Origin: a virus
Direction: 5' to 3' (one strand)
IMG/VR virus record: IMGVR_UViG_3300031566_000330
Span: 1-25,414 of that record
DNA: 25,414 nt
The notes under the pieces were generated by a model that saw nothing but the letters and a program-made list of their open reading frames with translations, had not been told where the DNA came from and searched no databases. This document shows positions 9,097 to 20,298 of the stretch, in pieces. Position 1 is the first letter of the stretch. Each line of letters begins with the position of its first letter. The position numbers and the translations under genes were made by a program.

Positions 9097-9130
9097 GGGG
9101 CAGCGGGGCGCGGAGGGACCCCGCTGCCCC
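9097..9130 (-). promoter_or_regulatory. Perfect 12-bp stem-loop between two small late genes
   Basis: The arms at 9097-9108 (GGGGCAGCGGGG on the plus strand) and 9119-9130 (CCCCGCTGCCCC) are perfectly complementary over 12 bp, with a 10-base loop. The element fills most of the gap between the 35-residue and 60-residue genes and ends 13 bases before the next ATG. There is no T-tract after it on either strand, so it is not a standard intrinsic terminator. An RNA processing site, a 3'-end stabiliser for the upstream capsid messages, or partial attenuation are reasonable roles. Confidence 0.7.
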
Positions 9131-18679: not shown

Positions 18680-18708
18680 TTGACTTTGCGGGCATTGTGT
18701 CGTATAGT
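18680..18708 (+). promoter_or_regulatory. Near-consensus sigma-70 promoter for the rightward mini-operon
   Basis: TTGACT at 18680-18685 and TATAGT at 18703-18708 are separated by exactly 17 bases, matching the sigma-70 consensus at 5 of 6 positions in each box. An AT-rich stretch with eight T residues lies just upstream (around 18652-18659). Transcription would begin near 18715, directly in front of the inverted-repeat leader. Confidence 0.8.
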
Positions 18709-18717
18709 TACTGTAGA

Positions 18718-18813
18718 AGCGCCATGCGAAACCCAACACGTATACACGGACTCTTCGGCCGCCCATCCTGGCCACTCCATTCGCATGGCGCTGGCTCAGG
18801 CTCTGGGCGGCCG
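18718..18813 (+). promoter_or_regulatory. Structured leader with interleaved inverted repeats (pseudoknot candidate)
   Basis: A perfect 13-bp pair (18718-18730 with 18780-18792; core GCGCCATGCGAA) interlocks with a perfect 10-bp pair (18756-18765, CGGCCGCCCA, with 18804-18813, TGGGCGGCCG). The arm order A-B-A'-B' allows an H-type pseudoknot with loops of about 25, 14 and 11 bases, or two competing folds. It starts about three bases after the predicted transcription start and ends 22 bases before the ATG at 18836. A small 43-codon frame beginning inside arm A (18724-18855) spans it and could be a leader peptide. A protein- or terminase-binding DNA site is the alternative. Confidence 0.65.
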
Positions 18814-18835
18814 TCTATTTCAAAGGGGCAGACCA

Positions 18836-19033
18836 ATGACACGCGAATACCATAAGTGCCCGTGGGGCGGCAAACGTCGGCAGTGCCGTGGCGTTCTCAC
18901 GCGCAAGACCGCTCACGCGACGTGGTACCTCCACACCATCAACTGTTCCGACACCTGCGCAGGTCACAACCCAGTGCCCATCGGCCGAGAGAACAACGGC
19001 ACGCCGCCGGCGTGCCTTGCAGTCGTGGCCTAA
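18836..19033 (+). CDS. Small Cys-containing protein, 65 aa (rightward operon)
   Basis: This is the first gene behind the strong rightward promoter. ATG at 18836 is chosen because AAAGGGGC stands just upstream. An in-frame ATG at 18785 exists but lacks a ribosome-binding site and lies inside a repeat arm. The 65-residue product (MTREYHKCPWGGKRRQCRG) is basic with four spaced cysteines (C8, C17, C37, C41) that may bind zinc, and a stretch HATWYLHTINCSDTCAGHNP. No family is recognised. Being transcribed alone against the main direction, it may be an early or regulatory protein. Function unknown. Confidence 0.6.
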   Translation: MTREYHKCPWGGKRRQCRGVLTRKTAHATWYLHTINCSDTCAGHNPVPIGRENNGTPPACLAVVA

Positions 19034-19039
19034 CCCTCA

Positions 19040-19056
19040 CCCCGCGCCATGCGGGG
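19040..19056 (+). promoter_or_regulatory. Small hairpin repeating the leader 10-mer
   Basis: CCCCGC (19040-19045) and GCGGGG (19051-19056) form a 6-bp stem with a 5-base loop in the gap between the first two rightward genes. The sequence GCGCCATGCG at 19044-19053 is identical to the left arm of the leader repeat (18719-18728). The following TGGCGTTGG-CTCT and AAAAGGGGC also resemble the end of that leader. There is no T-tract, so it is not a terminator. Confidence 0.5.
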
Positions 19057-19093: not shown

Positions 19094-19333
19094 ATGAACG
19101 ACGCAAACACCTGCATCGCCGCTGGACACACGCCTACAACGACATGGCACAGCCAGCCATGTTGTGAAGCGTGCGCGGTCTCGTGGTCACAGTCGATGAG
19201 TATACACGCCCACGTTCGTGAGAAAATGCGCGCTGAGGGCCGGATTGACACCGATGGCCGATTCCTCACGCGAGCGGACGACGCGGCATACTGGCGGCGC
19301 GTTGAGGCCGCGCTCGCCAAGGCCCGGCCATGA
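19094..19333 (+). CDS. Small hypothetical protein, 79 aa (rightward operon)
   Basis: ATG at 19094 follows AAAAGGGGCTTGAA. The 79-residue product starts MNDANTCIAAGHTPTTTWHS, has CCEAC near residue 23 with one more cysteine at 7, and a second half that is charged and helical (HVREKMRAEGRIDTDGRFL; DDAAYWRRVEAALAKARP). The Cys/His-containing N-terminus could be a small zinc site. It ends in an ATGA overlap with the next gene. No family is recognised. Confidence 0.65.
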   Translation: MNDANTCIAAGHTPTTTWHSQPCCEACAVSWSQSMSIHAHVREKMRAEGRIDTDGRFLTRADDAAYWRRVEAALAKARP

Positions 19334-19503
19334 ACCCCGCCGAACCCGTCGAGTGGCAGGGCCGGACCTGCACCCGCGCTGATTTGCGCCGGGAACTGCG
19401 GCGGATGGAGATGGCGCCGGAACTGGTGCGGAGCGTGGTCACACACCTATCGCGCACTGCCCAACAGTTGCCGAGCCCGCGCCTTCGTCGCCGCCGGGCG
19501 TGA
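19330..19503 (+). CDS. Small basic protein, 57 aa, overlapping the radical SAM gene tail to tail
   Basis: This short frame starts in an ATGA overlap with the 79-residue gene and has 57 codons (MNPAEPVEWQGRTCTRADLR; then a helix with RELRRMEMAPELVRSVVTHL; ending in RRRRA). Its last 57 bases overlap the 3' end of the convergent radical SAM gene. Stop-codon coupling supports translation. The Arg-rich end could reflect the overlap with the opposite gene. Helix-rich, possibly DNA-binding; unknown. Confidence 0.55.
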   Translation: MNPAEPVEWQGRTCTRADLRRELRRMEMAPELVRSVVTHLSRTAQQLPSPRLRRRRA

Positions 19504-20298
19504 CCACGCACGCGCCAAATGGCGCCACTCGTCGGGCCATTCCCGGCGCTTCGCCTCCGTTGGGCTCCGATACAACTGGCAAAACGGCGTCGCCCCCGCT
19601 TCCCAAACCTCAACGAGCCGAGCCTCGGCATCTTCAACCGTCTCTTGCGCATCAAAACCACAAAGTACATAGCATCGCAGCACGTTCCGCGAAACGCCAC
19701 CAAGAAGCCGTAGCGCTTTCCGCAGCGCGCCGATCCGGTGAACCGTGTCACACGCGAACCACATCTCATTGACCCGCAGCGACCGCAGGCGCGCGGCATC
19801 CCACGCGGTCAACCGGCCCGCCGCCAGCCCACCCTTAAACTGAACCGTAGGCACCCCCGCGAGCATATCGTACACGCGCCGACGGTGTGCTTTCGGACAC
19901 GCCAGAAGGTTGTTATCCTGGACCACCCGACCCGGCGATATGTGGTCCAACGTCCGCAGGCGCCCTTCCCATTCGGGCACGAGACACCACGGGCACCGAT
20001 CGTCACACCCCCGACTCGTGTAGGTGATACCTGCCTTGACGTACCGGCATGGAGTGAAGGTGTCGCACGGCGACTGATACGCAGGGCCGCCGACTCGGAC
20101 CTTGCCAGGATAGAGCATTTCCCACGATGGCTTGAGTATCCGCTCGGCACGGTCCTTGTCCCACGTGAAGCAGACGCTGATGTGAACTTCGCTGACCCGA
20201 TGCGCGGCGGGGGTCCACAGCGGCGGTTCGCAGACAAATGCGTGCCGGTCATCTGGCGTGTACTGTTTGCTTCGGCGTGGGAAGACCCGGAGGATCAT
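19447..20298 (-). CDS. Radical SAM enzyme with B12-binding-like N-terminus
   Basis: ATG at 20298 has GGGAG 5 bases upstream. The 283-residue product has a B12-binding-like N-terminal part (VHISVCFTWDKDRAERIL, residues 38-55, and KVRVGGPAY) and a radical SAM core opening ITYTSRGCDDRCPWC, with the CX3CX2C cluster at C98, C102 and C105. VVQDNNLLACPKAH (125-138) and VQFKGGLAAGRLT resemble the conserved second half of a radical SAM family known from environmental phages. It generates a 5'-deoxyadenosyl radical; the substrate is unknown. It ends the leftward early operon with a PP-loop enzyme two genes upstream. The C-terminus overlaps a convergent small gene. Confidence 0.88.
   Translation of the reverse strand: MILRVFPRRSKQYTPDDRHAFVCEPPLWTPAAHRVSEVHISVCFTWDKDRAERILKPSWEMLYPGKVRVGGPAYQSPCDTFTPCRYVKAGITYTSRGCDDRCPWCLVPEWEGRLRTLDHISPGRVVQDNNLLACPKAHRRRVYDMLAGVPTVQFKGGLAAGRLTAWDAARLRSLRVNEMWFACDTVHRIGALRKALRLLGGVSRNVLRCYVLCGFDAQETVEDAEARLVEVWEAGATPFCQLYRSPTEAKRREWPDEWRHLARAWSRPAATKARARQLLGSAR

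Follow-up and report, generated by a model that had tools for sequence, protein, structure and literature searches.

Two perfect inverted repeats that interleave directly behind a promoter raise the question of what they do, and whether they do it as DNA or as RNA. We addressed this question for a locus in a 25.4-kb record of an uncultured virus (25,414 nucleotides, here called the window), a podovirus-like phage whose large terminase subunit (TerL) is a GpA ATPase of phrog_675 and whose head-tail connector belongs to PF12236. A preliminary description had reported perfect 13-bp and 10-bp repeats, and their positions were confirmed: arm A (18718-18730, AGCGCCATGCGAA) is fully complementary to arm A' (18780-18792), and arm B (18756-18765, CGGCCGCCCA) to arm B' (18804-18813). 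The arms follow one another along the window strand in the order A-B-A'-B', and the two pairs have no overlapping bases. This H-type topology is above chance: the real window contained one interleaved pair whose arms reach at least 12 and 10 bp, none of 200 dinucleotide shuffles contained any, and a 13-bp inverted repeat within 100 bp occurred 0.06 times per shuffled window. The second strongest inverted repeat of the window, a perfect 12-bp repeat with a 10-nt loop, is located at 9097-9130.

The near-consensus promoter that had been placed ahead of the arms was also found, and it is the top one of three promoter-like sites within 3 kb; the sites were scored with an E. coli promoter model, and the hosts are uncertain. 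Arm A starts 9 nt past the -10 hexamer, i.e. at about +1 to +3 of the predicted transcript. The statement that nothing in the coding content explains the repeats proved wrong, since the element overlaps a leader ORF. Neither this frame, which begins at an ATG in arm A, nor the next gene 22 nt past B' with its SD-like sequence had been recorded. The parts of the locus are:

18680-18708, + strand: predicted sigma70-type promoter TTGACT-17-TATAGT, 10 of 12 consensus matches; relatives have TTGACT-17-GATAAT or similar at the same place
18718-18730, + strand: arm A, the 5' strand of helix A, which holds the leader ATG (18724)
18724-18855, + strand: leader ORF of 43 aa, open across the element, with its stop 17 nt beyond the next start codon
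18731-18755, + strand: loop 1, 25 nt; rich in A and poor in G in relatives, where it is often ACAATCAAACAA-like
18756-18765, + strand: arm B, GC-rich, pairs with B'
18780-18792, + strand: arm A', pairs with A; an ATG at 18785 is in frame with the 65-aa ORF
18804-18813, + strand: arm B', pairs with B
18814-18821, + strand: T-rich stretch TCTATTTC, a weak form of the U-tract found 3' of B' in relatives
18822-18828, + strand: SD-like AAAGGGG of the first cargo gene, as read from the sequence
18836-19033, + strand: first cargo ORF, 65 aa, ATG at 18836
19094-19333, + strand: second cargo ORF, 79 aa, with AAAAGGGG just ahead

Neither cargo ORF matched Pfam or PHROG. Between them lies a hairpin (CCCCGC-GCCAT-GCGGGG, 19039-19056) in which 10 nt of arm A are exactly repeated (19044-19053); this copy could rival A for pairing with A', or it could be due to chance, and no copy of arm A was found within 500 nt in the other elements. 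On the minus strand, upstream of the packaging genes, the window encodes a radical-SAM-like protein (phrog_9298, 19450-20298) and a PAPS-reductase-like protein (PF01507, 20624-21511).

No nucleotide match to the window was found among isolated phages, and neither the small ORFs nor the TerS gene, which the element adjoins, had usable relatives in the viral collection. The 65-aa ORF had a sole match, in L004, which was judged to be due to chance. Relatives were gathered by TerL and portal and comprised about 120 viral contigs and seven contigs from bacterial bins, three of them planctomycete bins (hosts uncertain). The nearest informative relative, L002, whose TerL is 72% identical, has two elements, unrelated in sequence, in which promoter, A, B, A' and B' follow one another as in the window; a GIY-YIG-like ORF (a weak Pfam match, under the cut-off) comes after one and an HNH ORF after the other. 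A first scan, in which interleaved stems had to follow a promoter, produced 22-23 matches above the best of two shuffled sets in 1.29 Mb, some of which were doubtful when inspected. When a gap-tolerant scan was confined to strong promoters, 21 matches were obtained at 848 promoters, compared with 2.3 expected from shuffled downstream sequence (Poisson p about 1e-13, approximate because the thresholds were chosen after the first cases were known). Among these 21, at least two seem to be false, including one within the TerL gene, and L083/L130 and L009/L012 are near-identical homologues. We set aside as doubtful or false L070 rc19893, L113, L074 and L070+ 11064, the last inside the TerL gene.

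A gap-tolerant duplex scan with no promoter threshold failed to distinguish real from shuffled GC-rich DNA, and the threshold was therefore raised; an energy scan that ignored promoters likewise yielded equal numbers of matches in shuffled DNA. The sequence pattern AATCAAACA...GGGGCTTTATTT was rejected as a marker, since it had only two matches in the viral collection, both by chance, and the sequence has no marker value elsewhere. In two planctomycete bins with such phage contigs among them, the remaining contigs (0.58 Mb) gave one match at 614 promoters versus 0.4 expected, indicating that the element is a property of the phages and not of the chromosomes in those two bins. It was absent from several contigs with sufficient upstream sequence, and the distant phages L151 (most of the genome) and L152 BcepC6B (24.5 of 42.4 kb) had no match. 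In all, the sample comprises about 22-28 elements, partly homologous and from metagenome contigs. The same anatomy with unrelated arm sequences, in the same order behind a promoter, was found in about 20 related phage contigs, which supports the pseudoknot or switch topology proposed for a transcript 5' end. The interleaved structure and its recurrence are well supported.

The shared layout consists of a σ70-type promoter, A-B-A'-B' from about +1, a T-rich run, an SD and a start codon. Across the elements, helix A has 7-20 bp, the A-rich loop 1 has 12-56 nt, helix B has 7-15 bp, and the gap between A' and B' is 0-15 nt (usually 0-11), for a total of 74-135 nt. The mean GC content is 79% in the B arms and 51% in the A arms. 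At each of the seven positions 3' of B', T makes up 52-75% (61% for the run, against about 30%), and the corresponding positions ahead of 533 control genes that have an SD contain 20-32% T; a U-tract after a GC-rich stem is present on average, good in L118 and L091, weak in the window and absent in L002+, L002- and L049-. In most elements B' ends 16-22 nt ahead of the next ATG, which corresponds to the edge of the 30S footprint. Such dimensions would also suit a 5'-terminal pseudoknot that stabilises the mRNA, its 5' end being enclosed where helices A and B meet and 5'-end-dependent decay being blocked, with the T-rich stretch and the SD as merely a good ribosome site alongside. The start of A at about +1, the usually short A'-B' gap, which would allow end-to-end stacking of the helices, the position of B' relative to the footprint and the constancy of the leader while the cargo genes vary all agree with this explanation. 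However, it predicts neither a start codon in A nor an open frame through B', and a translating leader would open the structure; we consider it unlikely.

The detection criteria were the promoter and the interleaved arms only, so that the start codon, the open frame and the T-run are independent of them. An ATG lies 3-34 nt past the -10 box at 19 of the 21 element promoters versus 339 of 822 others, and an ATG with at least 85 nt of open frame at 17 of 21 versus 150 of 822 (p 1.6e-9, approximate for the reason given above). Arm A contains or adjoins the start codon, and the frame is usually open through B': among 22 listed elements the chosen leader frame has a single stop, whereas the other two frames jointly have about 50. 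One element, L070 16336, has an early leader stop, which speaks against the mechanism proposed below. In L002+, L041, both copies of L012 (a and b), L036, L059, L070 and L080, the stop codon of the leader overlaps the next ATG or directly adjoins it, the junction being ATGA in L002+, L041, L070 (13613), L080 and L012b and TAATG in L012a; in L002-, L047-, L049- and L091 the leader is fused in frame to the next gene. By eye, the leader of the element at L047 835-948 (+ strand) appears to start at TTG, with an SD, GGAGG, within arm A, and to end with ATGA on the replication gene. Of the functions suggested in the preliminary description, control of translation fits a start codon in arm A and an open leader frame, whereas a free-standing small RNA is possible but leaves the reading frame unexplained.

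Twenty-five of 29 listed elements are oriented opposite to TerL, mostly 2-6.7 kb upstream of it. The remaining four are oriented as TerL and lie 6-9 kb upstream, before genes for replication initiators, which in L049 and L118 are followed by DnaB; in four phages a copy of the element heads the replication operon. In the leftward accessory region of L105 (rc strand), a pentapeptide-repeat ORF was found about 3.4 kb past the element. Two elements each are present in L002, L012, L047, L049 and L070. These positions do not agree with the suggestion of a packaging site next to the small terminase gene: pac or cos was rejected on account of the two elements per genome and of copies 6-9 kb from TerL, and the elements follow promoter, SD and ATG rather than a terminase gene. 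In a wider sense, the repeats could be an operator, a recombination or a packaging site acting as DNA, to which the vicinity of TerS in the window and a change of cargo precisely at the downstream ATG in L081/L083 would lend themselves. This is highly improbable given the strand-specific coupling with promoter, reading frame, T-run and SD, the copies distant from terminase genes and the different arms of copies within one genome. A riboswitch was rejected because there is no conserved ligand-binding core: arms and loops vary, and only the A-rich ACAATCAAACAA-like loop recurs. A host-type 5' UTR was considered and rejected as well.

In L002, L047 and L049 the elements head two separate early-type units, comparable to HK022, in which putL and putR lie downstream of two early promoters (PMC9378689). 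The leader might accordingly fold into a cis-acting antiterminator that, by binding RNA polymerase, carries it past later terminators of the early operons. The element has in common with put that it is a structured RNA close to the 5' ends of two early transcripts, with copies before replication genes. On the other hand, put makes conserved contacts with RNA polymerase and no pseudoknot is mentioned for it (PMC9378689), whereas the element has no conserved core sequence. In addition, the start codon and the reading frame through the element imply that ribosomes traverse it, and the leftward cargo unit of the window is only about 500 bp long. We regard antitermination of this kind as very doubtful.

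Pairing appears to be kept while the sequence is free in the group formed by L012a, L012b and L009; the window element itself has no close relative. The two L012 copies share about 68% of their sequence. Of 16 positions compared in their A arms, 9 are changed on both sides, yet each copy is self-complementary, with 14 of 16 pairs retained in L012b. L009, the homologue of L012a, shows a double change from G-C to T-A and a change from T-G to C-G in helix A, and helix B is kept in the group with a wobble and a bulge. The leader peptide differs between L012a and L012b, and only its openness is kept. Each L012 copy pairs with itself far better (-23.7 and -17.7 kcal/mol) than with the other (-10.1 and -4.9 kcal/mol). 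The hypervariable A arms, this self-preference and the GC-rich stem followed by a T-run could also be expected of a small RNA that ends past B' and targets either other RNAs in trans or the read-through transcript of its own locus, with A' blocking the leader start on another transcript and the arm sequence providing the specificity of a superinfection immunity; precedents are the c4 and P4 immunity RNAs and the IsrK locus of Gifsy-1 (PMC4825925 for the latter). Yet pairing in cis should prevail, as only about 50 nt separate A from A' in the one RNA; the U-tract is missing from several elements, and replication operons are also headed by copies. Action in trans is quite unlikely.

The genes behind the leader are exchanged as well. 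L081 and L083 have a common leader, and L083 has an extra gene of ~270 bp at the cargo start codon; L012a and L009 also have a common leader with different first genes. The gene inserted in L083 (4793-5062, compared with L081 around 1053) is flanked by a ~23-bp SD-ATG repeat, which looks as though genes swap behind the leader. The second ORF past the element of L081 (rc strand) is a small one with the sequence LIGCQTLKGVGEDLQWLGQ and by eye resembles an entericidin-type lipoprotein.

With Rfam 15 at curated thresholds, no match was found in the window or in L002, L012, L070, L047, L116, L118 and L059, and six further loci gave two weak matches (E<5), both outside the elements. Standard RNA-family searches miss the element because its sequence is not conserved and its pairs are interleaved. 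We found no description of such a leader in the open-licence literature, which is not proof of novelty, and this recurring start-of-message RNA design of an uncultured phage family is apparently undescribed.

Several known systems share some of its properties. The trp/his and erm leaders are ribosome-mediated transcription attenuators. Like them, the element has a short leader ORF, which runs across the putative regulatory stems, alternative pairings and, on average over the elements, a GC-rich stem with a U-rich run before the controlled gene. Unlike them, it has interleaved pairs instead of terminator and antiterminator pairings that share bases, and the start codon itself is in a helix; the peptide is not conserved, there is no regulatory codon run and the T-run is sometimes absent. 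The P1/P22 c4 and P4 immunity RNAs are phage leaders with a choice between read-through and a short RNA, which acts in trans on a separate complementary site. In the MS2 maturation-gene leader, translation is under kinetic control through nascent folding. The aapA3 type I toxin mRNA is likewise controlled kinetically by nascent folding (PMC6733600). In these last two, as in the mechanism proposed below, translation hinges on ribosomes preceding a pairing segment that is made later; in the element, however, the blocked start would be that of the leader ORF, and the blocking strand is within a pseudoknot that precedes a separate gene. In the timP mRNA, which belongs to a type I toxin-antitoxin system, a pseudoknot upstream of the ribosome site controls translation (PMC11228461), but there kissing stem-loops activate translation, an antitoxin RNA is involved and no leader ORF runs through the pseudoknot. 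The isrK locus of Gifsy-1 (PMC4825925) resembles the element: it, too, is a phage leader in which an upstream ORF and the gene under control are coupled, with read-through as opposed to a short RNA. IsrK (PMC4825925) acts in trans, as do the c4 and P4 RNAs, whereas both strands of the element lie within about 75 nt. None of the compared systems unites cargo exchange with interleaved helices from +1, of which the first holds a start codon and both are spanned by an open frame.

We calculated how the leader may fold as it is made. In nested folding of the growing window RNA, A:A' was predicted at -31 kcal/mol once A' was complete, and a B hairpin state at -41 kcal/mol and lower after B' was complete; the nested minimum-energy fold of the full leader retained B:B' and lost A:A'. 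Over 26 elements, the mean probability of the start codon being unpaired was 0.47 before A', 0.21 after A' and 0.44 with A' shuffled. In the window the leader ATG was locally paired even before A' was made (0.04). As A:A' and B:B' have no common bases, antagonism between them would depend on ribosome occupancy and not on competition for bases.

Based on these results, we tentatively favour the interpretation that early phage transcription begins with the element as a 5' leader, capable of forming a pseudoknot and overlapping a short ORF, that acts as an attenuator dependent on ribosome loading. Transcription would start at arm A, and while only A, loop 1 and B exist, the start codon in A would be accessible to a ribosome. 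With A' emerging, which in the window takes about 60 nt more, A:A' would form and the start codon would be locked. A loaded ribosome would translate the leader through B' and hold both helices apart; its translation would end at or near the next start codon, transcription would proceed and the next gene would be translated, often by coupling. With no ribosome loaded, A:A' and then B:B' would form, and B:B' with the U-tract would stop or slow RNA polymerase, or at minimum leave the leader silent. Use of the promoter, translation of the leader, its folding, attenuation and the direction of attenuation, and with them the mechanism as a whole, are what we infer from the arrangement. Several observations speak against it. 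The loop of the B:B' hairpin, about 25-45 nt, is long for an intrinsic terminator, and the U-tract is weak in the window and missing in the three elements named above. In the window, the leader ATG has no clear SD and is paired before A', and the leader stop lies beyond the next ATG.

Taken further, the start-codon-locking pseudoknot, at once coding sequence and attenuator, could be an exchangeable expression platform that serves the replication operon as well as a hypervariable accessory-gene slot, allowing early expression only if a ribosome loads within the first 60-100 nt; on the sequence comparisons presented here, this is a real but by no means assured possibility. If it is true, a group of uncultured phages would open their early messages with an RNA device that senses the ribosome supply of the host, and the sequence of the arms would be unconstrained provided that they pair with each other. 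The leader would then also offer a handle on accessory-gene slots, where the leader is conserved and the uncharacterised small genes right behind it vary.
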